DNA of 64,000 nucleotides from positions 17,867,807 to 17,931,806 of the forward strand of contig OY783206.1 of assembly GCA_963678705.1 (NCBI GenBank). Reading direction: 5' to 3'. This DNA comes from Panorpa germanica (Eukaryota; Arthropoda; Insecta; Mecoptera; Panorpidae). Below the pieces are notes generated by a model. It worked only from the letters and a program-made list of their open reading frames with translations, was not told the DNA's origin and ran no database searches. Shown piece after piece: positions 1 through 64,000 of the stretch (position 1 is the first letter of the stretch; each line of letters begins with the position of its first letter). Made by a program: the position numbers and the translations under genes.

Positions 1-947
1 TATTAATTGGTATAAGTGATTAGGTGAACAATATATGCGGTTTTCTTGGAAATAGTGATTGATCGTTCATGAACATACAATGGTAACAAACAAATGGTAA
101 GTAAGTAGGCTTAAGTACAAGTATGTACATGAGATATTTATAGAAATTCAGTGTGCCTTTTATAATGTCTGGTGGCCAAGTGACCTTTAAAGAATTAGAC
201 CGGCAAAATCCTCTAGGTACGTCTACTGCGCTATGGAGAACTATTTTCATTGTCGAACATTAATTTTACAAACCGATTGCCGTTCCATGAAAAGGTAACT
301 ATCTAAAGGTTGTCCTCAGCGATTTGTAATAGGGCCTGAGCTCTGGAACATGGTATTCGACGAGAACTGTGTTTCTCACTCGAAGGGTTGTGTAAACGTA
401 TGTTTTGCTAACGATAATGTGATCCTTATCGCTGCAAATAGTACAGAACAACTACAAAGCCGTCCTCGACCTGCTATAGATAAAATCTGTAGTTTCTTGA
501 AGCTACAACGCTACGAAACAAATACGGTGACAACGAATGATAAACTTGTAACACACCTTGCGCGTGTCACAAGGACGGAATGAAGCTAAAACTCGGCAAC
601 TATGCCGACACTATACAAGGGGGCATTTATGCCAATGGTTGTGTATTGTGCTTCGGCATGGTATTACAGGATCAATCCTCCATATCTTCCATGCAAAGAA
701 CTGTGTTATTGACGATGACGCGTTGTTGCAGAACTGTATCTACAGAAGTGGTGCAGGTGATATTAGGGACAATTCCTTTAGATTTAAATATCACTCATGC
801 ACTTACTCAAGTAAAAATTACGCTAGAACTGAAAAAATTAAATTTTGATGATTTAAAATTAATGCGACAAATTTCGAGGATTTAAAGATAATGCGGCTGT
901 AGGATAAAAGTCTGGAGACGATACCAAATATATTGCCAAAGTGATGA

Positions 948-961
948 ATGCATATATGCAT
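948..961. repeat. Perfect 14-base palindrome ATGCATATATGCAT
   Basis: A self-complementary sequence in the RT remnant, present in almost every monomer. One arm sits at the second duplication joint of monomer 34. Confidence 0.9.
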
Positions 962-1155
962 AAGCTCTGGCAAGACAGATCGGACTTAATACAAAAAGGA
1001 AGACCTACGTATTGGTTTAAAAGGAAGTTAATATTGCTTTGCAACACAAGTGGTTCCTATCTACTATGTGTGTGATCGGCTCCTGCTACTTTAGGTGAAA
1101 AAAGTGATTAAAAGTAAGAAATTAATTACGGAACAAAATTAAATAAATTATATGA

Positions 1156-1178
1156 ATACTTTTTCAAACGAAAAGTAT
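1156..1178. repeat. Linker hairpin ATACTTTT-7-AAAAGTAT
   Basis: An 8-base perfect inverted repeat with loop TCAAACG, kept in most monomers. Copies 2 and 5 have AACGATAAGTAT, which weakens the right arm. Confidence 0.85.
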
Positions 1179-1587
1179 TTAAGTTTGTTTTAAATTTGTG
1201 TTAATTTACCCTAAACAAAGTGTTTTTACAAAAGTTTGAAAGTTGGAAACCAGTATTAAAACGAATTTTTTATTACGCGTACACGCAGTCTTATAAACAT
1301 AACCTTAAAATTGTAACTTTGATGTTTGCTATAAGACAATAATAAGTGCGATAGACAAAAAAAGTGATAATAAATAGGTTAGTGTTAGTGCTAAAACATC
1401 AAGTGGTTAAGAAATTCAAGAAATCTGTAGAGGTTTATAAGGAAGACCTCATATAAACACTACAAATATACGGAAGACAAAAGGTTGCCGCCCACTATCA
1501 AGTAAGTCGATTTACATTAACTATAAATAATATTAAAACATAAGAATTAGTTTATATAAATGCGTGTTTTAAATAATAAAGAAAGTG

Positions 1588-3174
1588 TATTAATTGGTAT
1601 AAGTGATTAAGTGAACAATATATGCGGTTTTCTTGGAAATAGTGATTGATCGTTCATGAACATACAATGGTAACAAACAAATGGTAAGTAAGTAGGCATA
1701 AGTACAAGTATGTACATGAGATATTTATAGAAATTCAGTGTGCCTTTAATAATGTCTGGTGGCCAAGTGACCTTCAAAGAATTAGACCGGCAAAAACCTC
1801 TAGGTACGTCTACTGCGCTATGGAGAACTATTTTCATTGTCGAACATTAATTTTACAAACCGATTACCGTTCCATAAAAAGGCAACTATCTAAAGGTTGT
1901 CCTCTGCGATCTGTTATAGGGCCTGAGCTCTGGAGCATGGTATTCGACGAGAACTGTGTTTCTCAATCGAAAGGTTGTGTAAACGTATGTTTTGCCAACG
2001 AAAATGTGATCCTTATCGGTGCAAATAGTACAGAACAACTAGAAAGCCGTTCTCCACCTGCTATAGATAAAATCTGTAGTTTCTTGAAGCTACAAAGCTA
2101 CGAAACAAATACGGTAACAACGAATGATAAACTTGTAACACACCTTGCGCGTGTCACAAGGACGGAATGAAGCTTAAACTCGGCAACTATGCCGACACTA
2201 TACAAGGGGGCATTTATGCCAATGGTTGTGTGTTGTGCTTTGGCATGGTATTACAGGATCAATCTTCCAGATCTTTTATGCAAAGAACTATGTTATTGAC
2301 GATGACGCGTTGTTGCAGAACTGTATCTACAGAAGTGGTGCAGGTGATATTGGGGACAATTCCTTTATATTTAAAAATCACTCATGCACTTACACAAGTA
2401 CAAATTACGCTAGAACTGAAAATATCAAATTTTGATGATTTAAAATTAATGCGACAAATTTCGAGGATTTAAAGTTAATGCGGCTATAGAATAAAAGTCT
2501 GGAGACGATACCAAATATATTGCCAAAGAGATGAATGCATATATGCATAAGCTCTGGCAAGACAGATGGGACCAAATACGAAAAGGTAGACCTACGTATT
2601 GGTTTACAAGGACGTTAATATTGCTTTGCAGCACAAGTGGTTCCTATCTACTATGTGTGTGATCGGCTCCTGCTACTTTAGGTGAAAAAAGTGAATAAAA
2701 GTGAGAAATTAATTACGGAAAAAAATTAAATAAGTTATATGAATACATTTTCAAACGATAAGTATTTAAGTTTGTTTTAAATTTGTGTTAATTTACCCTA
2801 AACAAAGTGTTTTTACAAAAGTTTGACAGTTGGAAACCAGTGTTAAAAACGAATTTTTCATTACGCGTACACGCGGTCTTATAAGCATAACCTCAAAATT
2901 GTAACTTTGATGTTTGATATAAGACATTAATAAGTGCGATAGACAAAAAAGTGATAATTATTAGGTTAGTGTTAGTGCTAAAACATCAAGTGGTTAAGAA
3001 ATTCAAGAAATCTGTAGAGCTATATATGGAAGACCTCATATAAACACTACAAATACACGGAAGACAAAAGGTTGCCGCCCACTATCAAGTTAGTCGATTA
3101 ACATTAACTATAAACAATATTAAAACATAAGAAGTAGTTTATATAAATGCGTGTTTTAAATAATAAAGAAAGTG
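1588..3174 (+). repeat. Monomer 2, type b
   Basis: Type b is marked by CTCTGGAGCATGG and GCCAACGAAAATGTGATC (FANEN in place of FANDN). The motif A to motif C frame is open to the stop ending at 2170. The hairpin in the linker is imperfect here. Confidence 0.95.
2686..3174. repeat. AT-rich linker part of the monomer (example in copy 2)
   Basis: These ~490 bases recur in every copy between the RT remnant and the next monomer start. I recognise no family. Visible features are a hairpin (ATACTTTT / AAAAGTAT in most copies, imperfect here), the CpG dyad CGCGT-AC-ACGCG at 2864-2875, and a short translated stretch KVAAHYQ followed by AAGTTAGTC here (AAGTAAGTC in most copies, a possible splice donor). 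An ATAATAAAG poly(A)-like motif lies near the end. No long reading frame is present on either strand. It could be LINE untranslated sequence, flanking host DNA captured with the LINE fragment, or an older satellite. Confidence 0.7.
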
Positions 3175-4762
3175 TATTAATTGTTATAAGTAATTAAGTG
3201 AACAATATATGCGGTTTTCTTGGATATAGTGATTGATCGTTCATGAACATACAATGGTAACAAACAAATAGTAAGTAAGTAGGCATAAGTACAAGTATGT
3301 ACATGAGATATTTATAGAAATTCAGTGTGCCTTTGATATTGTCTGGTGGCCAAGTGACCTTCAAAGAATTAGACCGGCAAAAACCTCTAGGTACGTCTAC
3401 TGCGCTATGGAGAACTATTTTCATTGTCGAACATTCATTTTACAAACCGATTACCGTTCCATAAAAAGGCAACTATCTAAAGGTTGTCCTTAGCGATTTG
3501 TAATGGGGCCTGAGCTCTAAAACATGGTATTCGACGAGAACTGTGTTTCTCACTCGAAAGGTTGTGTAATCGTATGTTTTGCCAACGATAATGTGATCCT
3601 TATCGGTGCAAATAGTTCAAAACAACTCGAAAGCCGTTCTCGACCTGCTATAGATAAAATCTGTAGTTTCTTGAAGCAACAAAGCTACAAAACAAATACG
3701 GTAACAACGAATGCTAAACTTGTAACACACCTTGCGCCGTGTCACAAGGACGGAATGAAGCTTAAACTCGGCAACTATGCCGACACTATACAAGTAGGCA
3801 TTTATGCCAATGGTTGTGTATTGTGCTTCGGCATGGTATTACAGCATCAATCTTGCATATCTTTCATGCAAAGAACTATGTTATTGACGATGACGCGTTG
3901 TTGCAGAACTGTATCTACAGAAGTGGTGCAGGTGATATTGGGGACAATTCCTTTAGATTTAAATATCACTCATGCACTTACTCAAGTAAAAATTACGCTA
4001 GAACTGAAAAAATTAAATTTTGATGATTTAAAATTAATGCGACAAATTTCGAGGATTCAAAGATAATGCGGCTGTAGGATAAAAGTCTGGAGACGATATA
4101 AAATATATTGCCAAAGTGATGAATGCATATATGCATAAGCTCTGGCAAGACAGATCGGACTTAATACAAAAAGGAAGACCTACGTATTGGTTTAGAAGGA
4201 AGTTAATATTGCTTTACAACACAAGTGGTTTCTATCTACTATGTGTGTGATCGGCTCCTGCTACTTTAGGTGAAAAAAGTGATTAAAAGTAAGAAATTAA
4301 TTACGGAACAAAATTAAATAAATTATATGAATACTTTTTCAAACGAAAAGTATTTAAGTTTGTTTTAAATTTGTGTTAATTTACCCTAAACAAAGTGTTT
4401 TTACAAAAGTTTGAAAGTTGGAAACCAGTATTAAAACGAATTTTTCATTACGCGTACACGCAGTCTTATAAACAAAACCTTAAAATTGTAACTTTGATGT
4501 TTGATATAAGACAATAATAAGAGCGATAGACAAAAAAAGTGATAATAATTAGGTTAGTGTTAGTGCTAAAACATCAAGTGGTTAAGAAATTCAAAAAATC
4601 TGTAGAGGTATATAAGGAAGACCTCATATAAACACTACAAATATACGGAAGACAAAAGGTTGCCACCCACTATCAAGTAAGTCGATTTACATTAACTATA
4701 AATAATATTTAAACATAAGAATTAGTTTATATAAATGCGTGTTTTAAATAATAAAGAAAGTG
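3175..4762 (+). repeat. Monomer 3, type c
   Basis: Type c is marked by TTTGATATTGTCTGG, CCTTAGCGATTTG and TTGAAGCAACAAAGC. It carries the extra base that fuses two RT frames (see the 3201-4272 entry). Confidence 0.95.
3201..4272 (+). pseudogene. RT remnant of copy 3, with the two main frames fused
   Basis: In this copy an extra C in GCGCCGTGTCAC (around 3733-3744) brings the motif B/C frame and the QRT-block frame into register. The result is one 180-codon frame at 3524-4066. It runs from MVFDENCVSHSKG through FAND to QRTMLLTMTRCCRTVST and IPLDL. This is the longest open frame in the array but is still a partial RT: motifs A and B lie upstream of its ATG, and the GRPTYWF block is in another frame. 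The start ATG is the internal methionine after LWN-type residues (here altered), so it is not a natural gene start. I regard the fusion as chance, since neighbouring copies lack the extra base. Confidence 0.75.
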
Positions 4763-6350
4763 TATTAATTGGTATAAGTGATTAGGTGAACAATATATGC
4801 GGTTTTCTTGGAAATAGTGATTGATCGTTCATGAACATACAATGGTAACAAACAAATGGTAAGTAAGTAGGCTTAAGTACAAGTATGTACATGAGATATT
4901 TATAGAAATTCAGTGTGCCTTTGATAATGTCTGGTGGCCAAGTGACCTTTAAAGAATTAGACCGGCAAAATCCTCTAGGTACGTCTACTGCGCTATGGAG
5001 AACTATTTTCATTGTCGAACATTAATTTTACAAACCGATTGCCGTTCCATGAAAAGGCAACTATCTAAAGGTTGTCCTCAGCGATTTGTAATAGGGCCTG
5101 AGCTCTGGAACATGGTATTCGACGAGAACTGTGTTTCTCACTCGAAGGGTTGTGTAAACGTATGTTTTGCTAACGATAATGTGATCCTTATCGCTGCAAA
5201 TAGTACAGAACAACTACAAAGCCGTCCTCGACCTGCTATAGATAAAATCTGTAGTTTCTTGAAGCTACAACGCTACGAAACAAATACGGTGACAACGAAT
5301 GATAAACTTGTAACACACCTTGCGCGTGTCACAAGGACGGAATGAAGCTAAAACTCGGCAACTATGCCGACACTATACAAGGGGGCATTTATGCCAATGG
5401 TTGTGTATTGTGCTTCGGCATGGTATTACAGGATCAATCCTCCATATCTTCCATGCAAAGAACTGTGTTATTGACGATGACGCGTTGTTGCAGAACTGTA
5501 TCTACAGAAGTGGTGCAGGTGATATTAGGGACAATTCCTTTAGATTTAAATATCACTCATGCACTTACTCAAGTAAAATTACGCTAGAACTGAAAAAATT
5601 AAATTTTGATGATTTAAAATTAATGCGACAAATTTCGAGGATTCAAAGATAATGCGGATGTAGGATAAAAGTCTGGAGACGATACCAAATATATTGCCAA
5701 AGTGATGAATGCATATATGCATAAGCTCTGGCAAGACAGATCGGACTTAATACAAAAAGGAAGACCTACGTATTGGTTTAAAAGGAAGTTAATATTGCTT
5801 TGCAACACAAGTGGTTCCTATCTACTATGTGTGTGATCGGCTCCTGCTACTTTAGGTGAAAAAAGTGATTAAAAGTAAGAAATTAATTACGGAACAAAAT
5901 TAAATAAATTATATGAATACTTTTTCAAACGAAAAGTATTTAAGTTTGTTTTAAATTTGTGTTAATTTACCCTAAACAAAGTGTTTTTTACAAAAGTTTG
6001 ACAGTTTGGAAACCAGTGTTAAAACGAATTTTTCATTACGCGTACACGCAGTCTTATAAACATAACCTTAAAATGGTAAGTTTGATGTTTGATATAAGAC
6101 ATTAATAAGTAAGATAGACAAAAAAAGTGATAATAATTAGGTTAGTGTTAGTGCTAAAACATCAAGTGGTTAAGAAATTCAAGAAATCTGTAGAGCTATA
6201 TAAGGAAGACCTCATATACACACTACAAATAAACGGAAGACAAAAGGTTGCCGCCCACTATCAAGTAAGTCGATTTACATTAACTATAAATAATATTTAA
6301 ACATAAGAATTAGTTTATATAAATGCGTGTTTTAAATAATAAAGAAAGTG
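4763..6350 (+). repeat. Monomer 4, type a
   Basis: This copy repeats the type a marks of copy 1, about 4,762 bases later. Motif A reads AFDNVWWP but is followed by a stop (CTTTAAAGA). Its linker has ATAAGTAAGATAG, as in copy 11. Confidence 0.95.
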
Positions 6351-7937
6351 TATTAATTGGTATAAGTGATTAGGTGAACAATATATGCGGTTTTCTTGGA
6401 AATAGTGATTGATCGTTCATGAACATACAATGGTAACAAACAAATGGTAAGTAAGTAGGCATAAGTACAAGTATGTACATGAGATATTTATAGAAATTCA
6501 GTGTGCCTTTGATAATGTCTGGTGGCCAAGTGACCTTCAAAGAATTAGACCGGCAAAAACCTCTAGGTACGTCTACTGCGCTATAAAGAACTATTTTCAT
6601 TGTCGAACATTAATTTTACAATCCGATTACCGTTTCATAAAAAGGCAACTATCTAAAGGTTGTCCTCAGCGATCTGTTATGGGGCCTGAGCTCTGGAGCA
6701 TGGTATTCGACGAGAACTGTGTTTCTCACTCGAAAGGTTGTGTAAACGTATGTTTTGCCAACGAAAATGTAATCCTTATCGGTGCAAATAGTACAGAACA
6801 ACTAGAAAGCCGTTCTCGACCTGCTATAGATAAAATCTGTAGTTTCTTGAAGCTACAAAGCTACGAAACAAATACGGTAACAACGAATGATAAACTTGTA
6901 GCACACCTTGCGCGTGTCACAAGGACGGAATAAAGCTTAAACTCGGCAACTATGCCAACACTATACAAGGGGGCATTTATGCCAATGGTTGTGTGTTGTG
7001 CTTTGGCATGTTATTACAGGATCAATCTTCCAGATCTTTTATGCAAAGAACTATGTTATTGACGATGACGCGTTGTTGCAGAACTGTATCTACAGAAGTG
7101 GTGCAGGTGATATTGGGGACAATTCCTTTAGATTTAAAAATCACTCATGCACTTACACAAGTACAAATTACGCTAGAACTGAAAATATCAAATTTTGATG
7201 ATTTAAAATTAATGCGACAAATTTCGAAAATTTAAAGTTAATGCGGCTATAGAATAAAAGTCTGGAGACGATACCAAATATATTGCCAAAGAGATGAATG
7301 CATATATGCATAAGCTCTGGCAAGATAGATAAGACCAAATACAAAAAGGTAGACCTACGTATTGGTTTATAAGGACGTTAATATTGCTTTGCAACACAAG
7401 TGGTTCCTATCTACTATGTGTGTGATCGGCTTCTGCTACTTTAGGTGAAAAAAGTGATTAAAAGTAAGAAATTAATTACGGAAAAAAATTAAATAAGTTA
7501 TATGAATACTTTTTCAAACGATAAGTATTTAAGTTTGTTTTAAATTTGAGTTAATTTACCCTAAACAAAGTGTTTTTACAAAAGTTTGACAGTTGGAAAT
7601 TAGTGTTAAAAACGAATTTTTCATTACGCGTACACGCGGTCTTATAAGCATAACCTCATAATTGTAACTTTGATGTTTGATATAAGATATTAATAAGTGC
7701 GATAGACAAAAAAGTGATAATTATTAGGTTAGTGTAAGTGCTAAAACATCAAGTGGTTAAGAAATTCAAGAAATCTGTAGAGCTATATATGGAAGACCTC
7801 ATATAAACACTACAAATACACGGAAGACAAAAGGTTGCCGCCCACTATCAAGTAAGTCGATTAACATTAACTATAAACAATATTAAAACATAAGAATTAG
7901 TTTATATAAATGCGTGTTTTAAATAATAAAGAAAGTG
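6351..7937 (+). repeat. Monomer 5, type b
   Basis: Shares FANEN and CTCTGGAGCATGG with copy 2. The ATGGAG seen in other copies is ATAAAG here. Confidence 0.95.
6377..7447 (+). pseudogene. R1-clade LINE reverse transcriptase remnant (subfamily A example, copy 5)
   Basis: This is the clearest view of the reverse transcriptase core. A frame is open from about 6451 to 6933 (stop at 6931-6933). It carries KYVHEIFIEIQ then CAFDNVWWP (motif A, from 6481), GCPQRSVMGPELWS (motif B, 6658-6699) and FANE (motif C, 6754-6765; FAND in most copies). The frame then changes, and QRTMLLTMTRCCRTVST...IPLDL follows from 7041, as in the thumb and C-terminal part of R1-clade polymerases. A third frame near 7315 holds LWQDR, a stop, then the GRPTYWF block. 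Active R1-type enzymes have (V/I)DI in motif A and (F/Y)ADD in motif C; here the aspartates are replaced by E and N. Endonuclease, ORF1, RNase H and 3' UTR are absent. R1 clade is the best reading from GCPQGSVLGP-LWN-like and AFDNVWWP-like motifs; another I/Jockey-superfamily clade is possible. Confidence 0.82.
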
Positions 7938-9526
7938 TATTAATTGTTATAAGTGATTAAGTGAACAATATATGCGGTTTTCTTGGAAATAGTGATTGAT
8001 CGTTCATGAACATACAATGGTAACAAACAAATAGTAAGTAAGTAGGCATAAGTACAAGTATGTACATGAGATATTTATAGAAATACAGTGTGCCTTTGAT
8101 ATTGTCTGGTGGCGCAAGTGACCTTCAAAGAATTAGACCGGCAAAAACCTCTAGGTACGTCTACTGCGCTATGGAGAACTATTTTCATTGTCGAACATTC
8201 ATTTTACAAACCGATTACCGTTCCATGAATAGGCAACTATCTAAAGGTTGTCCTTAGCGATTTGTAATGGGGCCTGAGCTCTGGAACATGGTTTTCAACG
8301 AGAACTGTGTTTCTCACTCGAAAGGTTGTGTAAACGTATGTTTTGCCAACGATAATGTGATCCTTATCGGTGCAAATAGTTCAGAACAACTAGAAAGCCG
8401 TTCTCGACCTGCTATAGATAAAATCTGTAGTTTCTTGAAGCAACAAAGCTACAAAACAAATACGGTAACAACGAATGATAAACTTGTAACACACCTTGCG
8501 CGTGTCACAAGGACGGAATGAAGCTTAAACTCGGCAACTATGCCGACACTATACAAGAGGGCATTTATGCCAATGGTTGTGTATTGTGCTTCGGCATGGT
8601 ATTACAGGATCAATCTTGCATATCTTTCATGCAAAGAACTATGTTATTGACGATGACGCGTTGTTGCAGAACTGTATCTACAGAAGTGGTGCAGGAGATA
8701 TTGGGGACAATTCCTTTAGATTTAAATATCACTCATGCACTTACTCAAGTAAAAATTACGCTAGAACTAAAAAAATTAAATTTTGATGATTTAAAATTAA
8801 TGCGACAAATTTTGAGGATTTAAAGATAATGCGGCTGTTGGATAAAAGTCTGGAGACGATACCAAATATATTGCCAAAGTGATGAATGCATATATGCATA
8901 AGCTCTGGCAAGACAGATCGGACTTAATACAAAAAGGAAGACCAACGTATTGGTTTACAAGGACGGTTATATTGCTTTGCAGCACAAGTGGTTCCTATCT
9001 ACTATGTGTGTGATCGGCTCCTGCTACTTTAGGTGAAAAAAGTGATTAAAAGTAAGAAATTAATTACGGAACAAAATTAAATAAATTATATGAATACTTT
9101 TTCAAACGAAAAGTATTTAAGTTTGTTTTAAATTTGTGTTAATTTACCCTAAACAAAGTGTTTTTACAAAAGTTTGACAGTTGGAAACCAGTGTTAAAAA
9201 GAAATTTTTCATTACGCGTACACGCAGTCATATAAACATAACATCAAAATTGTAACTTTGATGTTTGATATAAGACATTAATAAATGCGATAGACAAAAA
9301 AGTGATAATAATTAGGTTAGTGTTAGTGCTAAAACATCAAGTGGTTAAGAAATTCAACAAATCTGTAAAGCTATATAAGGAATACCTCATATAAACACTA
9401 CAAATATACGGAAGACAAAAGGTTGCCGCCCACTATCAAGTAAGTCGATTAACATTAACTATAAATAATATTAAAACATAAGAATTAGTTTAAAATATAT
9501 GCGTGTTTTAAATAATAAAGAGAGTG
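7938..9526 (+). repeat. Monomer 6, type c
   Basis: Shares TTTGATATTGTCTGG, CCTTAGCGATTTG and TTGAAGCAACAAAGC with copy 3, closing the second trimer. It has a one-base insertion in GGTGGCGCAAGTG, and its tail is TTTAAAATATATGCG, like copy 8. Confidence 0.95.
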
Positions 9527-11113
9527 TATTAATTGTTATAAGTGATAAGGTGAACAATATATGCGGTTTTCTTAGAAATAGTGATTGATCGTTCATGAAC
9601 ATACAATGGTAACAAACAAATGGTAAGTAAGTAGGCATAAGTACAAGTATGTACATGAGATATTTATAGAAATTCAGTGTGCCTTTGATAATGTCTGGTG
9701 GCTAAGTGACCATCAAAGAATTAGACCGGCAAAAACCTCTAGGTACGTCTACTGCGCTTTGGAGAACTATTTTCATTGTCGAACATTCATTTTACAAACC
9801 GATTACCGTTCCATGAAAAGGCAACTATCTAAAGGTTATCCTCAGCGATTTGTAATGGGGCCTGAGCTCTGGAATATGGTATTTGACGAGAACTGTGTTT
9901 CTCACTCGAAAGGTTTTGTAAACGTATGTTTTGCCAATAATAATGTAATCCTTATCGGTGCAAATAGTACAGAACAACTAGAAAGCCGTTCTCGACCTGC
10001 TATAGATAAAATCTGTAGTTTCTTTAAGCTACGAAGCTACAAAACAAATACCGTAACAACAAATGATAAACTTGTAACACACCTTGCGCGTGTCACAAGG
10101 ACGGAATGAAGCTTAAACTCGGCAACTATGCCGACACTATACAAGGGGGAATTTATGCCAATGGTTGTGTATTGTGCTTCGGCATGGTATTACAGGATCA
10201 ATCTTTCATATCTTCCATGCAAAGAACTATGTTATTGTCGATAATGCGTTGTTGCAGAACTGTATCTACAGAAGTGGTGCAGGTGATATTGGGGACAATT
10301 CCTTAAGATTTAAATATCACCCATGCACTTACTTAAGTTAAAATTACGCTTGAACTGAAAAAATAAAATTTTGATGATTTAAAATTAATGCGACAAATTT
10401 CGAGGATTTAAAGATAATGCGGCTGTAGGATAAAAGTCTAGAGACGATACCAAATATATTGCCAAAGTGATGAATGCATATGTGCATAAGCTCTGGCAAG
10501 ACAGATCGGACTTAATACAAAAAGGAAGACCTACGTATTGGTTTAAAAGGAAGTTAATAATGCTTTGCAACACAAGTGGTTCCTATCTACTATGTGTGTG
10601 ATCGGCTCCTGCTACTTTAGGTGAAAAAAGTGATTAAAAGTAAGAAATTAATTACGGAACAAAATTAAATAAATTATATGAATACTTTTTTAAACGAAAA
10701 GTATTTAAGTTTGTTTTAAATTTGTGTTAATTTACCCTAAACAAAGTGTTTTTACAAAAGTTTGACAGTTGGAAACCAGTGTTAAAAAGAAATTTTTCAT
10801 TACGCGTACACGCGGTCTTATAAACATAACCTCAAAATTGTAACTTTGATGTTTGATATAAGACAATAATAAATGCGATTGACAAAAAAGTGATAATAAT
10901 TAGGTTAGTGTTAGTGCTAAAACATCAAGTGGTTAAGAAATTCAAGAAATCTGTAGAGCTATATAAGGAATACCTCATATAAACACTACAAATATACGGA
11001 AGACAAAAGGTTGCCGCCCACTATCAAGTAAGTCGATTAACATTAACTATAAATAATATTAAAACATAAGAATTAGTTTATATAAATGCGTGTTTTAAAT
11101 AATAAAGAGAGTG
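9527..11113 (+). repeat. Monomer 7, type d
   Basis: Type d is marked by GCGCTTTGGAG, GTGGCTAAGTGACCATC, GGTTATCCTCAGCG and CTTACTTAAGTT. A TAA in the QRT-block frame shortens that frame to 66 codons (10106-10306). Confidence 0.95.
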
Positions 11114-12672
11114 TATTAATTGTTATAAGTGATTAGGTGAACAATATATGCGGTTTTCTTGGAAATAGTGATTGATCGTTCATGAACATACAATGGTAAC
11201 AAACAAATGGTAAGTAAGTAGGCATAAGTACAAGTATGTACATGAGATATTTATAGAAATTCAGTGTGCCTTTAATAATGTCTGGTGGCCAAGTAAACTT
11301 CAAAGAATTAGACCGGCAAAAACCTCTAGGTACGTCTACTGCGCTATGGAGAACTATTTTTATTGTCGAACATTAATTTTACAAACCGATTACCGTTCCA
11401 TAAAAAGGCAACTATCTAAAGGTTGTCCTCAGCGATCTGTAATGGGGCCTGAGCTCTGGAACATGGTATTCGACGAGAACTGTGTTTCTCACTCAAAAGG
11501 TTGTGTAAACGTATGTTTTGCAAACGACAATGTGATCCTTATCGGTGCAAATAGTACAGAAAAACTAGAAAGCCGTTCTCGACCTGCTATAGATAAAATC
11601 TGTAGTTTCTTGAAGCTACAAAGCTACGAAACAAATACGGTAACAACGAATGATAAACTTGTAACACACCTTGCGCGTGTCACAAGGACGGAATGAAGCT
11701 TAAACTCGGCAACTATGCCGACACTATACAAGGGGACATTTATGCCAATGGTTGTGTGTTGTGCTTCGGCATGGTATTACAGGATCAATCTTCCAGATCT
11801 TTTATGCAAAGAACTATGTTATTGACGATGACGCGTTGTTGCAGAACTGTATCTACAGAAGTGGTGCAGGTGATATTGGGGACAATTCCTTTAGATTTAA
11901 AAATCACTCATGCACTCACACAAGTACAAATTACGCTAGAAATGAAAAAATCAAATTTTGATGATTTAAAATTAATGCGGCTATAGGATAAAAGTCTGGA
12001 GACGATACCAAATATATTGCAAAAGTGATGAATGCATATATGCATAAGCTCTGGCAAGACAGATCGGACCTAATACAGAAAGGAAGACCTACGTATTGGT
12101 TTACAAGGACATTAATATTGCTTTGCAACACAAGTGGTTCCTATTTACTATGTGTGTGATCGGCTCCTGCTACTTTAGGTGAAAAAAGTGATTAAAAGTA
12201 AGAAATTAGTTACGGAACAAAATTAAATAAATTATATGAATACTTTTTCAAACGAAAAGTATTTAAGTTTGTTTTAAATTTGTGTTAATTTACCCTAAAC
12301 AAAGTGTTTTTACAAATGTTTGACAGTTGGAAACCAGTGTTAAAAACGAATTTTTCATTACGCGTACACGCGGTCTTATAAACATAACCTCAAAATTGTA
12401 ACTTTGATGTTTGATATAAGACATTAATAAATGCGATAGACAAAAAAGTGATAATAATTAGGTTAGTGTTAGTGCTAAAACATCAAGTGGTTAAGAAATT
12501 CAAGAAATCTGTAGAGCTATATAAGGAATACCTCATATAAACACTACAAATATACGGAAGACAAAAGGTTGCCGCCCACTATCAAGTAAGTCGATTAACA
12601 TTAACTATAAATAATATTAAAACATAAGAATTAGTTTAAAATATATGCGTGTTTTAAATAATAAAGAGAGTG
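11114..12672 (+). repeat. Monomer 8, type e, 28 bases short
   Basis: Type e is marked by AAGTAAACTTCAAAG, AACTATTTTTATTG, AGGGGACATTTATG and GAAATGAAAAAATC. Twenty-eight bases are missing near 11977, between direct repeats of TTAATGCG, as expected from slippage or a short-range exchange. Confidence 0.95.
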
Positions 12673-15845: not shown

Positions 15846-16371
15846 TATTAATTGTTATAAGTGATTAGGTGAACAATATATGCGGTTTTCTTAGAAATAG
15901 TGATTGATCGTTCATGAACATACAATGGTAACAAACAAATGGTAAGTAAGTAGGCATAAGTACAAGTATGTACATGAGATATTTATAGAAATTTAGTGTG
16001 CCTTTGATAATGTCTGGTGGCTAAGTGACCATCAAAGAATTAGACCGGCAAAAACCTCTAGGTACGTCTACTGCGCTTTGGAGAACTATTTTCATTGTCG
16101 AACATACATTTTACAAACCGATTACCGTTCCATGAAAAGGCAACTATCTAAAGGTTATCCTCAGCGATTTGTAATGGAGCCTGAGCTCTGGAGTATGGTA
16201 TTTGACGAGAACTGTGTTTCTCACTCGAAAGGTTTTGTAAACGTATGTTTTGCCAATGATAATGTGATCCTTATCGGTGCAAATAGTACAGAACAACTAG
16301 AAAGCCGTTCTCGACCTGCTATAGATAAAATCTGTAGTTTCTTGAAGCTACGAAGCTACAAAACAAATACG

Positions 16372-16376
16372 GTAAC
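16372..16376 (+). repeat. Target site duplication GTAAC, left copy
   Basis: GTAAC precedes the 5' LTR. Uninterrupted monomers read ACGGTAACAACGAATG here, with a single GTAAC. Confidence 0.95.
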
Positions 16377-16567
16377 TGGTTAATTTTAGAACACACATTT
16401 TGCTCCTTTAAGCAGCAAAATGTTGCCAAATTTATTTATTCTAACGTATTTGTCAAATTTCAAATTATTTATTGTTTTGTGACAAATTCATTTATATTTG
16501 CGCCACCAGAGATCTCTTTTATCAACCAGATTACAGCTGGTCACAATCCCTTCCCCTTTTGCTGATC

Positions 16568-16594
16568 TATATAAGTGACTGCGCTGTTATCAGT
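16568..16594 (+). promoter_or_regulatory. LTR core promoter: TATATAAG and TCAGT initiator
   Basis: TATATAAG lies at 16568-16575 and TCAGT, the arthropod initiator consensus, at 16590-16594. The spacing (about 24 bases to the A of CAGT) is slightly short for a TATA-Inr pair but plausible. The same pair recurs in the 3' LTR. Confidence 0.6.
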
Positions 16595-16823
16595 GCTGCT
16601 CTGTACATTTTATTAGTCGCTCTTTACGCTCGTCTCTTTACTATTTATTAGTTGCTTTACTAGCTACTCGGCTCTTTACTAGTATAGCTCTTTACTAGAC
16701 TAAGATGCTCTTACTACTTGTTACTTTGTCATTATCTATATTTAGTTATATTTATTATTAGTTATATTTTAAGTGTTAATTATTATTTATTGTTATTCAA
16801 AACTTGTGATTTAAATTAGATCC

Positions 16824-16829
16824 AATAAA
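16824..16829 (+). terminator. Poly(A) signal AATAAA in the 5' LTR
   Basis: A canonical hexamer 447 bases into the LTR, downstream of the promoter pair. The equivalent site in the 3' LTR is at 21313-21318 and would end the element's transcript. Confidence 0.5.
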
Positions 16830-52418: not shown

Positions 52419-54004
52419 TATTAATTGTTATAAGTGATTAAGTGAACAATATATGCGGTTTTCTTGGAAATAGTGATTGATCGTTCATGAACAGTCAATG
52501 GTAACAAACAAATAGTAAGTAAGTAGGCATAAGTACAAGTATGTATATGAGATATTTATAGAAATTCAGTGTGCCTTTGTTGATGTCCGGTGGCCAAGTG
52601 ACCTTCAAAGAATTAGACCGGCAAAAACCTATAGGTACGTCTACTGCGCTATGAAGAACTATTTTCATTGTCGAACATTATTTTACAAACCGATTACCGT
52701 TCCATAAAAAGGCAACTATCTAAAGGTTGTCCTCAGCGATCTGCAATAGGGCCTAAGCTCTGGAACATAGTATTCGACGAAAACTGTGTTTCTCACTCGA
52801 AAGGTTGTGTAGACATATGTTTTGCCAACGATAGTGTGATCCTTATCGGTGCAGATAGTACAGAAACCCTAGAAAGCCGTTCTCGACCTGCTATATATAA
52901 AATCTGTAGTTTCTTGAAGCTACAAAGCTACGAAACAAATACAGTAACAACGAATAATAAACTTGTAACACACCTTGCGCGTGTCACAAGGACGGAATGA
53001 AGCTAAAACTCGGCAACTATGCCGACACTATACAAGGGGGCATTTATGCTAATAGTTGTGTATTGTGCTTCGGCATGGTATTACAGGATCAATCTTCCAG
53101 ATCTTATATGCAAAGAACTATGTTATTGACGATGACGCGTTGTTGCAGAACTGTATCTACAGAAGTGGTGCAAGTGATATTGGGGACAATTCCTTTAGAT
53201 TTAAAAATCACTCATGCACTTACTCAAGTACAAATTACGCTAGAACTGAAAAAATCAAATTTTGATGATTTAAAATTTTTGCGACAAATTTCGAGGATTT
53301 AAAAATAATGCGGCTGTAGGATAAAAGTCTGGAGACGATACCAAATATATTGGCAAAGAGATGAATGCATATATGCATAAGCTCTGGCAAGACAGATGGG
53401 ACTAATTACAAAAAGGAAGACCTACGTATTGGTTTACAAGGACGTTAATATTGCTTTGCAACACAAGTGGTTCCTATCTACTATGTGTGTGATCGGCTCC
53501 TGCTAATTTAGGTGAAAAAAAAGATTAAAAGTGAGAAATCAATTATGGAAAAAAATTAAATAAATTATATGAATACTTTTTTAAACGAAAAGTATTTAAG
53601 TTTGTTTTAAATTTGTGTTAATTTACCCTAAACAAAGTGTTTTTACAAAAGTTTGACAGTTGGAAACCAGTGTTAAAAACGAATTTTTCATTACGCGTAC
53701 ACGCGGTCTTATAAACATAACCTCAAATTTGTAACTTTGATGTTTGATATAAGACATTAATAAGTGCGATAGACAGAAAAAGTGATAATAATTAGGTTAG
53801 TGTTAGTGCTAAAACATCAAGTGGTTTAAAATTCAAGAAATCTGTAGAGATATATAAGGAAGACCTCATATAAACACTACAAATATACGAAAGACAAAAG
53901 GTTGCCGCTCACTATCAAGTAAGTCGAATAACATTAACTATAAATAATATTAAAACACAAGAATTAGTTTATATAAATGCGTGTTTTAAATAATAATGAG
54001 AGTG
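52419..54004 (+). repeat. Monomer 31, subfamily B
   Basis: Type s front. The back has AAAATTTTTGCGAC, GGGACTAATTAC, GCTAATTTAGG and AGAAATCAATTATGG, all repeated in copy 36. GATAGTGTG and GCAGATAG are private. Confidence 0.95.
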
Positions 54005-55590
54005 TATTAATTGTTATAAGTGATTAAGTGAACAATATATGCGGTTTTCTTGGAAATAGTGATTGATCGTTCATGAACATTCAATGGTAACAAACAAATG
54101 GTAAGTAAGTAGGCATAAGTACAAGTATGTATATGAGATATTTATAGAAATTCAGTGTGCCTTTGTCGATGTCCGGTGGCCAAGTGACCTTCAAAGAATT
54201 AGACCGGCAAAAACCTATAGGTACGTCTACTGCGCAATGGAGAACTATTTTCATTGTCGAACATTATTTTACAAACCGATTACCGTTCCATGAAAAGGCA
54301 ACTATCTAAATTTTGTCCTCAGCGATCTGTAATGGGGCCTGAGCTCTGGAACATGGTACTCGACGAGAACTGTGTTTCTCACTCGAAAGGTTGTGTAGAC
54401 ATATGTTTTGCCAACGATAATGTGATCCTTATCGGTGCAAATAGTACAGAAACCCTAGAAAGCCGTTCTCGACCTGCTATATATAAAATCTGTAGTTTCT
54501 TGAAGCTACAAAGCTACGAAACAAATACAGTAACAACGGATGATAAACTTGTAACACATCTTGCGCGTGTCACAAGGACGGAATGAAGCCTAAACTCGGC
54601 AACTATGCCGACACTATACAAGGGGGCATTTATGCTAATAGTTGTGTATTGTGCTTCGCATGGTATTACAGGATCAATCTTCCAGATCTTCCATGCAAAG
54701 AACTATGTTATTGACGATGACGCGTTGTTGCAGAACTGTATCTACAGAAGTGTGCAAGTGATATTAAGGACAATTCCTTTAGATTTAAAAATCACTCATG
54801 CACTTACTCAAGTACAAATTACGCTAGAACTAAAAAAATCAAATTTTGATGATTTAAATTAATGCGACAAATTTTGAGGATTTATAGTGAATGCGGCTGT
54901 AGGATAAAAGTCTGGAGACGATACCAAATATATTGCCAAAGAGATGAATGCATATATGCATAAGCTCTGGCAAGACAGATGGTGACTATAATTACAAAAA
55001 GGAAGACCTACGTATTGGTTTACAAGGACGTTAATATTGCTTTGCAACACAAGTGGTTTCTATCTACTATGTGTGTGATCGGCTCCTGCTAATTTAGGTG
55101 AAAAAAGTGATTAAAAGTGAGAAATTAATTATGGAAAAAAATTAAATAAATTATATGAATACTTTTTCAAACGAAAAGTATTTAAGTTTGTTTTAAATTT
55201 GTGTTAATTTACCCTAAACAAAGTGTTTTTACAAAAGTTTGACAGTTGGAAACCAGTGTTAAAAACGAATTTTTCATTACGCGTACACGCGGTCTTATAA
55301 ACATAACCTCAAATTTGTAACTTTGATGTTTGATATAAGACATTAATAGTGCGATAGACAGAAAAAGTGATAATAATTAGGTTAGTGTTAGTGCTAAAAC
55401 ATCAAGTGGTTTAAAATTTCATGAAATCTGTAGAGATATATAAGGAAGACCTCATATAAACACTACAAATATACGAAAGACAAAAGGTTGCCGCTCACTA
55501 TCAAGTAAGTCGAATAACATTAACTATAAATAATATTAAAACACAAGAATTAGTTTATATAAATGCGTGTTTTAAATAATAATGAGAGTG
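54005..55590 (+). repeat. Monomer 32, subfamily B
   Basis: Marks TTTGTCGATGTCC, GCGCAATGG, CACATCTTGCG and GAAGCCTAAAC recur in copy 37. Small losses (TTCGCATGG, AAGTGTGCAAG, TTTAAATTAATG) and an insertion (GATGGTGACTATAATTAC) break the RT frame further. Confidence 0.95.
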
Positions 55591-57164
55591 TATTAATTGT
55601 TATAAGTGATTAAGTGAACAATATATGCGGTTTTCTTGGAAATAGTGATTGATCGTTCATGAACATTCAATGGTAACAAACAAATGGTAAGTAAGTAGGC
55701 ATAAGTACAAGTATGTATATGAGATATTTATAGAAATTCAGTGTGCCTTTGTCGATGTCCGGTGGCCAAGTGACCTTCAAAGAATTAGACCGGCAAAAAC
55801 CTGTAGGTACGTCTACTGCGCTATGGAGAACTATTTTGATTGTCGAACATTATTTTACAAACCGATTACCGTTCCATGAAAAGGCAACTATCTAAAGGTT
55901 GTCCTCAGCGATCTGTAATGGGTATCATGGTATTCGACGAGAACTGTGTTTCTCACTCGAAAGGTTGTGTAGACATATGTTTTGCCAACGATAATGTGAT
56001 CCTTATCGGTGCAAATAGTACAAAAACCCTAGAAAGCCGTTCTCGACCTGCTATATATAAAATCTGTAGTTTCTTGAAGCTACAAAGCTACGAAACAAAT
56101 ACAGTAACAACGAATGATAAACTTGTAACACAGCTTGCGCGTGTCACAAGGACGGAATGAAGCTTAAACTCGGCAACTATGCCGACACTATACAAGGGGG
56201 CATTTATGCTAATAGTTGTGTATTGTGCTTCGGCATGGTATTACAGGATCAATCTTCCAGATCTTCCATGCAAAGAACTATGTTATTGACGATGACGCGT
56301 TGTTGCAGAACTGTATCTACAGAAGTGGTGCATGTGATATTGGGGACAATTCCTTTAGATTTAAAAATCACTCATGCACTTACTCAAGTAAAAATTACGC
56401 TAGAACTGAAAAAATCAAATTTTGATGATTTAAAATTAGTGCGACAAATTTCGAGGATTTAAAGTTAATGCGGCTGTAGGATAAAAGTCTGGAGACGATA
56501 CCAAATATATTGCCAAAGAGATGAATGCATATATGCATAAGCTCTGGCAAGACAGATGGGACTTAATACAAAAAGGAAGACCTACGTATTGGTTTACAAA
56601 GACGTTAATATTGCTTTGCAACACAAGTGGTTCCTATCTACTATGTGTGTGATCGGCTCCTGCTACATTAGGTGAAAAAAGTGATTAAAAGTGAGAAATT
56701 AATTATGGAAAAGAATTAAATAAATTACATGAATACTTTTTCAAACGAAAAGTATTTAAGTTTGTTTTAAATTTGTGTTAATTTACCCTAAACAAAGTGT
56801 TTTTACAAAAGTTTGACAGTTGGAAACCAGTGTTAAAAACGAATTTTTCATTACGCGTACACGCGGTCTTATAAACATAACCTCAAATTTGTAACTTTGA
56901 TGTTTGATATAAGACATTAATAAGTGCGATAGACAGAAAAAGTGATAATAATTAGGTTAGTGTTAGTGCTAAAACATCAAGTGGTTTAAAATTCAAGAAA
57001 TCTGTAGAGATATATAAGGAAGACCTCATATAAACACTACAAATGTACGAAAGACAAAAAGTTGCCGCTCACTATCAAGTAAGTCGAATAACATTAACTA
57101 TAAATAATATTAAAACACAAGAATTAGTTTATATAAATGCGTGTTTTAAATAATAATGAGAGTG
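55591..57164 (+). repeat. Monomer 33, subfamily B, 12 bases short
   Basis: AATGGGTATCATGG replaces the usual GGGGCCTGAGCTCTGGAAC region near 55918-55929. Twelve bases and the ELW part of motif B are lost, in frame. Confidence 0.95.
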
Positions 57165-57420
57165 TATTAATTGTTATAAGTGATTAAGTGAACAATATAT
57201 GCGGTTTTCTTGGAAATAGTGATTGATCGTTCATGAACATTCAATGGTAACAAACAAATGGTAAGTAAGTAGGCATAAGTACAAGTATGTATATGAGATA
57301 TTTATAGAAATTCAGTGTGCCTTTGTCGATGTCCGGTGGCCAAGTGACCTTCAAAGAATTAGACCGGCAAAAACCTATAGGTACGTCTACTGCGCAATGG
57401 AGAACTATTTTCATTGTCGA

Positions 57421-57862
57421 ACATTATTTTACAAACCGATTACCGTTCCATGAAAAGGCAACTATCTAAAGGTTGTCCTCAGCGATCTGTAATGGGGCCT
57501 GAGCTCTGGAACATGGTATTCGACGAGAACTGTGTTTCTCACTCGAAAGGTTGTGCAGACATATGTTTTGCCAACGATAATGTGATCCTTATCGGTGCAA
57601 ATAGTACAGAAACCCTAGAAAGCCGTTCTCGACCTGCTATATATAAAATCTGTAGTTTCTTGAAGCTACAAAGCTACGAAACAAATACAGTAACAACGAA
57701 TGATAAACTTGTAACACACCTTGCGCGTGTCACAAGGACGGATTGAAGCTTAAACTCGGCAACTATGCCGACACTATACAAGGGGGCATTTATGCTAATA
57801 GTTGTGTATTGTGCTTCGGCATTGTATTACAGGATCAATCTTCCAGATCTTCCATGCAAAGA
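57421..57862 (+). repeat. First copy of the 442-base internal duplication in monomer 34
   Basis: Starts at ACATTATTTTACAAACCG, which recurs at 57863. The second copy runs to about 58304. They are not identical in type marks (for example CGTTCCATG against CGTTTTATG). Confidence 0.85.
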
Positions 57863-58552
57863 ACATTATTTTACAAACCGATTACCGTTTTATGAAAAGG
57901 CAACTATCTAAAGGTTGTCCTCAGCGATCTGTAATGGGGCCTGAGCTCTGGAACATGGTATTCGACGAGAACTGTGTTTCTCACTCGAAAGGTTGTGTAG
58001 ACATATGTTTTGCCAACGATAATGTGATCCTTATCGGTGCAAATAGTACAGAAACCCTAGAAAGCCGTTCTCGACCTGCTATATATAAAATCTGTAGTTT
58101 CTTGAAGCTACAAAGCTACGAAACAAATACAGTAACAACGAATGATAAACTTGTAACACACCTTGCGCGTGTCACAAGTACGGAATAAAGCTTAAACTCG
58201 ACAACTATGCCGACACTATACAAGGGGGCATTAATGCTAATAGTTGTGTATTGTGCTTCAACATGGTATTACAGGATCAATCTTTCAGATCTTCCACGCA
58301 AAGAACTATGTTATTGACGATGACGCGTTGTTGCAGAACTGTATCTACAGAAGTGGTGCAAGTGATATTGGGGACAATTCCATTAGATTTAAAAATCACT
58401 CATGCAATTACTCAAGTACAAATTACGCAAGAACTGAAAAAATCAAATTTTGATGATTTAAAATTAATGCGACAAATTTCGAGGATTTAAAGTTAATGCG
58501 GCTGTATGATAAAAGTCTGGAGACGATACCAAATATATTGCCAAAGAGATGA

Positions 58553-58851
58553 ATGCATATATGCATAAGCTCTGGCAAGACAGATGGGACTTAATACAAA
58601 AAGGAAGACCTACGTATTGGTTTACAAGGACGTTAATATTGCTTTGCAACACAAGTGGTTCCTATCTACTATGTGTGTGATCGGCTCCTGCTACTTTAGG
58701 TGGAAAAAGTGATTAAAAGTGAGAAATTAATTATGGAAAAAAATTAAATAAATTATATGAATACTTTTTCAAACGAAAAGTATTTAAGTTTGTTTTAAAT
58801 TTGTGTTAATTTACCCTAAACAAAGTGTTTTTACAAAAGTTTGAAGTTTTT
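58553..58851 (+). repeat. First copy of the 299-base internal duplication in monomer 34
   Basis: Starts at ATGCATATATGCATAAGC, which recurs at 58852. It covers the end of the RT remnant and the first part of the linker, including the ATACTTTT hairpin. Confidence 0.88.
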
Positions 58852-59491
58852 ATGCATATATGCATAAGCTCTGGCAAGACAGATGGGACTTAATACAAAA
58901 AGGAAGACCTACGTATTGGTTTACAAGGACGTTAATATTGCTTTGCAACACAAGTGGTTTCTATCTACTATGTGTGTGATCGGCTCCTGCTACTTTAGGT
59001 GGAAAAAGTGATTAAAAGTGAGAAATTAATTATGGAAAAAAATTAAATAAATTATATGAATACTTTTTCAAACGAAAAGTATTTAAGTTTGTTTTAAATT
59101 TGTGTTAATTTACCCTAAACAAAGTGTTTTTACAAAAGTTTGACAGTTGGAAACCAGTGTTAAAAACGAATTTTTCATTACGCGTACACGCGGTCTTATA
59201 AACATAACCTCAAATTTGTAACTTTGATGTTTGATATAAGACATTAATAAGTGCGATAGACAAAAAAAGTGATAATAATTAGGTTAGTGTTAGTGCTAAA
59301 ACATCAAGTGGTTTAAAATTCAAGAAATCTGTAGAGATATATAAGGAAGACCTCATATAAACACTACAAATATACGGAAGACAAAAGGTTGCCGCCCACT
59401 ATCAAGTAAGTCGAATAACATAAACTATAAATAATATTAAAACACAAGAATTAGTTTATATAAATGCGTGTTTTAAATAATAATGAGAGTG

Positions 59492-61077
59492 TATAAATTG
59501 TTGTAAGTGATTAAGTGAACAATATATGCGGTTTTCTTGGAAATAGTGATTGATCGTTCATGAACATTCAATGGTAACAAACAAATGGTAAGTAAGTAGG
59601 CATAAGTACAAGTATGTATATGAGATATTTATAGAAATTCAGTGTGCCTTTGTTAATGTCCGGTGGCCAAGTGACCTTCAAAAAATTAGACTGGCAAAAA
59701 CCTATAGGTACGTCTACTGGGCTATGGAGAACTATTTTCATTGTCGAACATTATTTTACAAACCGATTACCGTTCCATGAAAAGGCAACTATCTAAAGGT
59801 TGTCGTCAGCGATCTGTAATGGGGCCTGAGCTCTGGAACATGGTATTCGACGAGAACTGTGTTTCTCACTTGAAAGGTTGTGTAGACATATGTTTTGCCA
59901 ACGATAATGTGATCCTTATCGGTGCAAATAGTACAGAAACCCTAGTAAGCCGTTCTCGACCTGCTATATATAAAATCTGTAGTTTCTTGAAGCTAAAAAG
60001 CTACGAAACAAATACAGTAACAACGAATGATAAACTTGTAACACACCTTGCGCGTGTCACAAGGACGGAATGAAGCTTAAACTCGGCAACTATGCCGACA
60101 CTATACAAGGGGGCATTTATGCTAATAGTTGTGTATTGTGCTTCGGCATGGTATTACAGGATCAATCTTCCAGATCTTCCATGCAAAGAACTATGTTATT
60201 GACGATGACGCGTTGTTGCAGAACTGTATCTACAGAAGTGGTGCAAGTGATATTGGGGACAATTCCTTTAGATTTAAAAATCACTCATGCACTTACTCAA
60301 GTACAAATTACGCTAGAACTGAAAAAATCAAATTTGGATGATTTAAAATTAATGCGACAAATTTCGAGGATTTAAAGTTAATGCGGCTGTAGGATAAAAG
60401 TCTGGAGACGATACCAAATATATTGCCAAAGAGATGAATGCATATATGCATAAGCTCTGGCAAGACAGATAGGACTTAATACAAAAAGGAAGACCTACGT
60501 ATTGGTTTACAAGGACGTTAATATTGCATTGCAACACAAGTGGTTCCTATCTACTATGTGTGTGATCGGCTCCTGCTACTTTAGGTGAAAAAAGTGATTA
60601 AAAGTGAGAAATTAATTATGGAAAAAAATTAAATAAATTATATGAATACTTTTTCAAACGAAAAGTATTTAAGTTTGTTTTAAATTTGTGTTAATTTACC
60701 CTAAACAAAGTGTTTTTACAAAAGTTTGACAGTTGGAAACCAGTGTTAAAAACGAATTTTTCATTACGCGTACACGCGGTCTTATAAACATAACCTCAAA
60801 TTTGTAACTTTGATGTTTGATATAAGACATTAATAAGTGCGATAGACAAAAAAAGTGATAATAATTAGGTTAGTGTTAGTGCTAAAACATCAAGTGGTTT
60901 AAAATTCAAGAAATCTGTAGAGATATATAAGAAAGACCTCATATAAACACTACAAATATACGGAAGACAAAAGGTTGCCGCCCACTATCAAGTAAGTCGA
61001 ATAACATTAACTATAAATAATATTAAAACACAAGAATTAGTTTATATAAATGCGTGTTTTAAATAATAATGAGAGTG
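59492..61077 (+). repeat. Monomer 35, subfamily B, type r
   Basis: Carries the type r marks of copies 27 and 29 (GTATAAATTG, GACTGGC, CTGGGCTATGG, AAATTTGGATG, TTGCATTGC). GGTTGTCGTCAGCG and CACTTGAAAGG are private. Confidence 0.95.
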
Positions 61078-62663
61078 TATTAATTGTTATAAGTGATTAA
61101 GTGAACAATATATGCGGTTTTCTTGGAAATAGTGATTGATCGTTCATGAACAGTCAATGGTAACAAACAAATGGTAAGTAAGTAGGCATAAGTACAAGTA
61201 TGTATATGAGATATTTATAGAAATTCAGTGTGCCTTTGTTGATGTCCGGTGGCCAAGTGACCTTCAAAGAATTAGACCGGCAAAAACCTATAGGTACGTC
61301 TACTGCGCTATGGAGAACTATTTTCATTGTCGAACATTATTTTACAAACCGATTACCGTTCCATAAAAAGGCAACTATCTAAAGGTTGTCCTCAGCGATC
61401 TGCAATGGGGCCTGAGCTCTGGAACATAGTATTCGACGAAAACTGTGTTTCTCACTCGAAAGGTTGTGTAGACATATGTTTTGCCAACGATAATGTGATC
61501 CTTATCGGTGCAAATAGTACAGAAACCCTAGAAAGCCGTTCTCGACCTGCTATATATAAAATCTGTAGTTTCTTGAAGCTACAAAGCTACGAAACAAATA
61601 CAGTAACAACGAATGATAAACTTGTAACACACCTTGCGCGTGTCACAAGGACGGAATGAAGCTTAAACTCGGCAACTATGCCGACACTATACAAGGGGGC
61701 ATTTATGCTAATAGTTGTGTATTGTGCTTCGGCATGGTATTACAGGATCATTTTTTCAGATCTTACATGCAAAGAACTATGTTATTGACGATGACGCGTT
61801 GTTGCAGAACTGTATCTACAGAAGTGGTGCAAGTGATATTGGGGACAATTCCTTTAGATTTAAAAATCACTCATGCACTTACTCAAGTACAAATTACGTT
61901 AGAACTGAAAAAATCAAATTTTGATGATTTAAAATTTTTGCGACAAATTTCGAGGATTTAAAAATAATGCGGCTGTAGGATAAAAGTCTGGAGACGATAC
62001 CAAATATATTGCCAAAGAGATGAATGCATATATGCATAAGCTCTGGCAAGACAGATGGGACTAATTACAAAAAGGAAGACCTACGTATTGGTTTACAAGG
62101 ACGTTAATATTGCTTTGCAACACAAGTGGTTCCTATCTACTATGTGTGTGATCGGCTCCTGCTAATTTAGGTGAAAAAAGTGATTAAAAGTGAGAAATCA
62201 ATTATGGAAAAAAATTAAATAAATTATATGAATACTTTTTCAAACGAAAAGTATTTAAGTTTGTTTTAAATTTGTGTTAATTTACCCTAAACAAAGTGTT
62301 TTTACAAAAGTTTGACAGTTGGAAACCAGTGTTAAAAACGAATTTTTCATTACGCGTACACGCGGTCTTATAAACATAACCTCAAATTTGTAACTTTGAT
62401 ATTTGATATAAGACATTAATAAGTGCGATAGACAGAAAAAGTGATAATAATTAGGTTAGTGTTAGTGCTAAAACATCAAGTGGTTTAAAATTCAAGAAAT
62501 CTGTAGAGATATATAAGGAAGACCTCATATAAACACTACAAATATACGAAAGACAAAAGGTTGCCGCTCACTATCAAGTAAGTCGAATAACATTAACTAT
62601 AAATAATATTAAAACACAAGAATTAGTTTATATAAATGCGTGTTTTAAATAATAATGAGAGTG
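61078..62663 (+). repeat. Monomer 36, subfamily B
   Basis: The front matches copy 30 (GAACAGTCAATGG, CTGCAATGGGGCC). The back matches copy 31 (AAAATTTTTGCGAC, GGGACTAATTAC, GCTAATTTAGG). GATCATTTTTTCAG is private. Confidence 0.95.
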
Positions 62664-64000
62664 TATTAATTGTTATAAGTGATTAAGTGAACAATATATG
62701 CGGTTTTCTTTAAAATAGTGATTGATCGTTCATGAACATTCAATGGTAACAAACAAATGGTAAGTAAGTAGGCATAAGTACAAGTATGTATATGAGATAT
62801 TTATAGAAATTCAGTGTGCCTTTGTCGATGTCCGGTGGCCAAGTGACCTTCAAAGAATTAGACCGGCAAAAACCTATAGGTACGTCTACTGCGCAATGGA
62901 GAACTATTTTCATTGTCGAACATTATTTTACAAACCGATTACCGTTCCATGAAAAGGCAACTATCTAAAGGTTGTCCTCAGCGATCTGTAATGGGGCCTG
63001 AGCTCTGGAACATGGTATTCGACGAGAACTGTGTTTCTCACTCGAAAGGTTGTGTAGACATATGTTTTGACAACGATAATGTGATCCTTATCGGTGCAAA
63101 TAGTACAAAAACCCTAGAAAGCCGTTCTCGACCAGCTATATATAAAATCTGTAGTTTCTTGAAGCTACAAAGCTACGAAACAAATACAGTAACAACGAAT
63201 GATAAACTTGTAACACATCTTGCGCGTGTCACAAGGACGGAATGAAGCCTAAACTCGGCAACTATGCCGACACTATACAAAGGGGCATTTATGCTAATAG
63301 TTGTGTATTGTGCTTCGGCATGGTATTACAGGATCAATCTTCCAGATCTTCCATGCAAAGAACTATGTTATTGACGATGACGCGTTGTTGCAGAACTGTA
63401 TCTACAAAAGTGGTGCAAGTGATATTGGGGACAATTCCTTTAGATTTAAAAATCACTCATGCACTTACTCAAGTACAAATTACGCTAGAACTGAAAAAAT
63501 CAAATTTGGATGATTTAAAATTAATGCGACAAATTTCGAGGATTTAAAGTTAATGCGGCTGTAGGATAAAAGTCTGGAGACGATACCAAATATATTGCCA
63601 AAGAGATGAATGCATATATGCATAAGCTCTGGCAAGACAGATGGGACTTAATACAAAAAGGAAGACCTACGTATTGGTTTACAAGGACGTTAATATTGCA
63701 TTGCAACACAAGTGGTTCCTATCTACTATGTGTGTGATCGGCTCCTGCTACTTTAGGTGAAAAAAGTGATTAAAAGTGAGAAATTAATTATGGAAAAAAA
63801 TTAAATAAATTATATGAATACTTTTTCAAACGAAAAGTATTTAAGTTTGTTTTAAATTTGTGTTAATTTACCCTAAACAAAGTGTTTTTACAAAAGTTTG
63901 ACAGTTGGAAACCAGTGTTAAAAACGAATTTTTCATTACGCGTACACGCGGTCTTATAAACATAACCTCAAATTTGTAACTTTGATGTTTGATATAAGAC
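62664..64000 (+). repeat. Monomer 37, subfamily B, cut by the window end
   Basis: The first 1,337 bases of a monomer. It shares TTTGTCGATGTCC, GCGCAATGG, CACATCTTGCG and GAAGCCTAAAC with copy 32, then type r marks (AAATTTGGATG, TTGCATTGC). Confidence 0.95.

Follow-up and report, generated by a model that had tools for sequence, protein, structure and literature searches.

We analysed a window of 64,000 nucleotides from Panorpa germanica; the window here means the whole stretch of DNA under analysis. A search with the first unit, in which rearranged, split and window-cut units were counted, divided bases 1–64000 into 37 head-to-tail units (m1–m37) on a single strand, with a mean pairwise identity of 96.3% (range 93.7–99.9%). 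An earlier interpretation made from the letters alone (the sequence-only reading) had described 37 tandem monomers of ~1.59 kb, each with an AT-rich linker joined to a reverse transcriptase (RT) part. Both descriptions were borne out; the consensus GC was 0.28 at 1–100, 0.39 at 101–1075 and 0.27 at 1076–1586. As that reading had supposed, the copies within the window were also tandem rather than single and LINE-like. The array extended past both window ends, and neither edge was inside the window. The features are collected in Table 1.

Table 1. Coordinates of the array, its notable units and the inserted element (positions in the window).
Feature	Position	Strand	Remark
Array, older block: m1 to m10 and first part of m11	1..16376	+	
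m2 example, 160-aa frame with motifs A, B and C	1688..2170	+	
m2 example, second piece QRT...CRTVST, different frame	2131..2472	+	Presumably R1-like, by motif
m2 example, third piece WQDRW...GRPTY, third frame	2531..2659	+	Presumably R1-like, by motif
LTR retrotransposon in m11	16377..21466	+	5.09 kb, not part of the repeat unit
gag-like ORF with DUF1759	19288-20616	+	Pfam E 3.1e-8
Array: remainder of m11, then m12 to m37	21467..64000	+	
m14 switch, older to younger variants (consensus 525-632)	~26243..26350	+	
m15-m18, candidate duplication region	27306..33385	+	m15/m17 99.93%, m16/m18 99.37% identical
m34	57165..59491	+	2,327 bp; two direct duplications within the unit (442 and 299 bp)

When all units were cut at one common point, 30 of the 37 measured 1,585–1,589 bp. 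The seven units outside this range were m8 (1,559 bp), m33 (1,574 bp), m15 and m17 (1,454 bp each), m34 with its internal duplications, m11, which was split by the LTR insertion, and m37, which was truncated at the window end. The units m15 and m17 had a common deletion, in which ~143 bp was exchanged for ~10 bp of filler (27513-27522 and 30553-30562); the filler is apparently a repair joint that was later copied along with its neighbourhood. Microhomology counts at the rearrangement joints vary with where the aligner sets the breakpoints and were left out of the interpretation. A 29-bp sequence was tandemly doubled within the unit (at 840-895 and at the equivalent site of most units), and m8 was short of 29 bp at this site. 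No tRNA genes were found in the window.

The element inside m11 was bounded by LTRs of 601 bp with 3 mismatches and by a 5-bp target duplication, GTAAC. Its gag-like ORF contained DUF1759, which we take to be a link to the BEL/Pao family. Two other frames of at least 110 aa on the + strand gave no Pfam match taken as real, the single - strand frame ran antisense to the gag-like ORF, and no pol was seen with Pfam among the + strand frames of that size. The element is apparently non-autonomous and, by the presumed family link, BEL/Pao-like. Since the LTR divergence (0.5%) was lower than the mean unit divergence, the insertion was probably later than most unit divergence.

Reverse transcriptase content of the unit

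In six of the 37 units, the 160-aa frame that carries RT motifs A, B and C was open, and all six frames were scanned and matched Pfam RVT_1 (E 3.7e-7 to 0.0019). One of them (14359-14838, 30.5 bits) was above the curated cut-off of 29.6 bits, and the next best scored 29.2 bits. Judged from these sequence matches, the RT likeness of the frame is beyond chance; RVT_1 by itself cannot tell LINEs from other RTs. The RT domain expected of a LINE was present as a fragment: the match spanned frame residues 7 to ~117, or ~330 of the 1,586 bp of the unit. The AlphaFold model of the frame had a mean pLDDT of 36.8.

Two further pieces, QRT...CRTVST and WQDRW...GRPTY, presumably come, by their motifs, from the C-terminal region of the ORF2 of an R1-like element. 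Neither gave a Pfam match taken as real; the weak matches to GDA1_CD39, Nic96, Arrestin_N, Imm3 and Flavi_NS4A were taken as chance. By the same kind of motif reading, we assumed that ~975 bp of the unit is LINE-derived and that the unit is R1-like. The sequence-only reading had called two-thirds of the monomer an RT core. The RVT_1 matches agree with an RT core, but the extent supported by Pfam was the ~330 bp given above, and because the QRT and WQDRW pieces were without a real Pfam match, the two-thirds share was left without support from a test. The ordered landmark set that it had described was likewise upheld in part: motifs A, B and C followed one another in one 160-aa frame, whereas the QRT and WQDRW pieces were in two other frames. 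Its statement that each monomer carries the landmarks did not hold, as exact AFDNVWWP was found in 4/37 units, AF.NV.W in 17/37, GCPQ.SV.GP.LWN in 14/37, WQDRWD...GRPTY in 19/37, and FAND and QRT.LLTMTRCCRTVST in 32/37 each. In m15-37, near-fixed changes at consensus 162 and 170 shifted motif A towards AFVNVRWP, which was present in exact form in six of the 37 units.

The motif A aspartate and the first aspartate of motif C are catalytic positions of RTs and were placed here by motif. At the motif A position the codon was GAA in 36 units and AAA in one, and at the first motif C position it was AAC or AAT in every unit; both aspartates were therefore absent from 37/37 units. The array thus lacked these two catalytic aspartates and the intact ORF of a LINE, with the pieces lying in three frames. 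The simplest reading would be that the catalytic residues were lost before amplification; alternatively, the lesions may have spread later by homogenisation.

Coding constraint was assessed with codon frames that took account of a one-base column after consensus 261. Across all 37 units, singletons at codon positions 1/2/3 numbered 29/28/21, 22/14/18 and 8/10/9 in the first, second and third pieces, respectively. Synonymous singletons were 8 against 10.1 expected in the first piece (m1-14), 14 against 13.0 in the second piece (all units) and 6 against 6.3 in the third piece (all units). As many as 19% of shuffles reached the largest excess, 11 against 8.4 in the second piece of m1-14. Comparison of synonymous singletons with expectation gave no sign of coding constraint in the three pieces. 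The CpG observed/expected ratio was 1.02 and C-to-T changes were without excess, a pattern that gives a hint of, and is compatible with, a host low in CpG methylation, like many insects.

Blocks and duplications in the array

The mean difference between units was 4.2% within m1-14, 2.1% within m15-37 and 4.9% between the two groups, which we labelled the older and the younger block, respectively. Nineteen near-fixed differences, chosen by using the m14/m15 split, separated the blocks. The unit m14 itself carried the older variants as far as consensus 525 and the younger ones from 632 onwards, and single units deviated from the block pattern at sites 525, 636, 755 and 213. Two indels were in accord with the two-block pattern: the base after consensus 261 was present in m1-14 and absent in m15-37 except in the m34 duplication, and the base after 1410 was present in m1-13 and, among the others, in m32 only, with a different letter.

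The farther apart two units lay in the array, the more their sequences differed. This held for the full set of 37 units (r 0.53, p 0.0002) and for m15-37 with m34 left out (r 0.36, p 0.0008); the trend was weak in m1-14 (r 0.20, p 0.051). The similarity between m15-16 and m17-18 (Table 1) suggests a two-unit duplication. The unit closest to m16 was m20 (99.5%), rather than m18, and such a duplication would therefore not be a clean one. The identities of m1-3 to m4-6 (98.8, 97.7 and 96.7%) suggest a putative older three-unit duplication. The blocks, the switch within m14 and the multi-unit duplications would together be the pattern expected from unequal exchange, and reinsertion of circles could contribute to it.

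Origin of the repeat

We consider it quite probable that the array is a non-coding macrosatellite from a LINE-type RT fragment, spread by host recombination without its own reverse transcription. The label macrosatellite rests on the tandem array within one 64-kb window. As in a satellite, similar units followed one another on one strand over a long stretch, and they were without detected coding constraint and differed less within the blocks than between them. To this observed base belong the RT content and the catalytic loss in all units, as well as the two blocks with one switch, the multi-unit duplications and the single later insertion of an LTR element. Counted against this reading were the position of both array edges outside the window, the weak distance trend in m1-14, the imperfect two-unit duplication, the choice of the 19 differences by the m14/m15 split and the short extent of the RT similarity established by test. 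In the proposed course of events, an inactive, out-of-frame RT fragment of a non-LTR retrotransposon would have joined AT-rich non-coding DNA, and the joined sequence would have become the repeat unit. This unit would have been multiplied head to tail via host recombination, with no reverse transcription by the unit itself during amplification, and unequal exchange, possibly together with circle reinsertion, would keep the units alike. We infer that the fragment was dead before amplification and that unequal exchange was the mechanism, and the source, judged by motifs, was presumably a LINE of R1 type. One sequence would then display a dead transposon fragment turned satellite, with common lesions, two generations of units with a single switch between them, multi-unit duplications and a young LTR insertion; it would be useful for the study of satellite birth and overturns nothing.

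The units all have the same orientation and are partly RT-derived, as they would be if a LINE itself had built the array by repeated target-primed insertion beside earlier copies, followed by shrinkage to the present unit. R1 elements form tandem arrays in Drosophila, and these are similar to the array here in being head-to-tail DNA of an R1-like element. However, the Drosophila arrays retain the element ends, whereas no ends were detected in the present unit, as judged without an R1 reference sequence for the ends, and the RVT_1 match is internal. In addition, every one of the 37 units has interrupted, catalytically dead pieces, and the multi-unit duplications and the within-unit switch indicate exchange among existing units; construction by the LINE is therefore unlikely. 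An array produced wholly or partly by the assembly might be suspected from the near identity of m15 and m17, but 258 singleton changes across the units, distinct indels and the LTR insertion argue against it, and we regard such an artefact as very improbable.

The units are kept similar, which would also agree with a sequence-dependent non-coding role, either as a source of small RNAs that target an active, related LINE or as a chromosome-specific block of heterochromatin; nothing direct speaks for it. Insects do have TE-derived repeats with small RNAs, as described in the part of PMC3184123 that deals with TE-LNCR of S. frugiperda, which is unrelated to the array unit as far as judged from that part. 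The lowest unit diversity was found in the 60-bp window at consensus 1185-1244 (~1185-1244 in m1; permutation p 0.005). However, singletons were not fewer there (p 0.77, 60-bp windows), and no constrained block was therefore established; moreover, Rfam gave no family at cut-off in bases 1-26000, the part searched. A role of this kind appears improbable to us. An equally slim chance is given to one form of the idea, in which the host keeps the array and the RNA transcribed from it supplies small-RNA silencing directed at the parental LINE family, or in which the array marks a heterochromatic or sex chromosome. If this were true, a dead RT core would have been recruited and homogenised for its sequence instead of its protein.

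Relatives, location and known satellites

Relatives were sought among PDB chains and in records from prokaryotes, viruses and plasmids, and no LINE reference or relative was found in them. Given this make-up of the collections, the absence of relatives says nothing on rarity in eukaryotes. Five patterns, of which the first four were degenerate RT/LINE patterns and the last an exact pattern of the unit, returned 0, 11, 0, 2 and 0 loci in viral contigs. The 11 loci were rejected after tblastn with the three pieces (best E 0.081), as were the two loci (best E 0.091), which look like phage contigs by eye. Separate peptide-pattern searches of viral contigs also yielded no relative, a weak result as these patterns were taken from the least RT-like ends. 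Two patterns gave 0 loci in genome contigs, and one 160-aa frame had no match in plasmids. One unit searched against phages gave two records with a 45-base match (E 0.5). The best matches among PDB sequences (E 0.15 and 1.7) were unrelated proteins.

Telomeric R1-type arrays (TRAS/SART) sit in TTAGG-type repeats. No TTAGG-type insertion was found in this window: TTAGGTTAGG and CCTAACCTAA were absent, and TCAGGTCAGG was absent from the + strand. Within the window, the array therefore did not have the setting of a telomeric R1-type array. It may be heterochromatic, one of the two settings (centromeric or heterochromatic) that the sequence-only reading had put forward.

In searches of open-licence PMC papers, no satellite named there was recognised as this repeat, which does not imply that it is unpublished. 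The array, which we take to be R1-like by its motifs, differs in source from PROsat, Pvc 20 and HinfI/SCR1, which are from L1 and CR1. According to the portion of PMC9659126 that covers them, these published satellites of Phodopus roborovskii, Phoca vitulina concolour and chicken (CR1), respectively, are alike in including LINE ORF2 sequence in the unit. The same portion describes 18HT of Drosophila melanogaster, which is alike in being a satellite from non-LTR retrotransposons (HeT-A/TART) but comes from telomeric elements and lies at the Y centromere (PMC9659126). The sources of satellites named in a 2025 review include LTRs, gag or pol parts, untranslated regions of LINEs and parts of DNA transposons (PMC12628747). 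LINE ORF2-derived satellites are known, and the array would join that kind; the range of RT motifs within one unit may be less usual.
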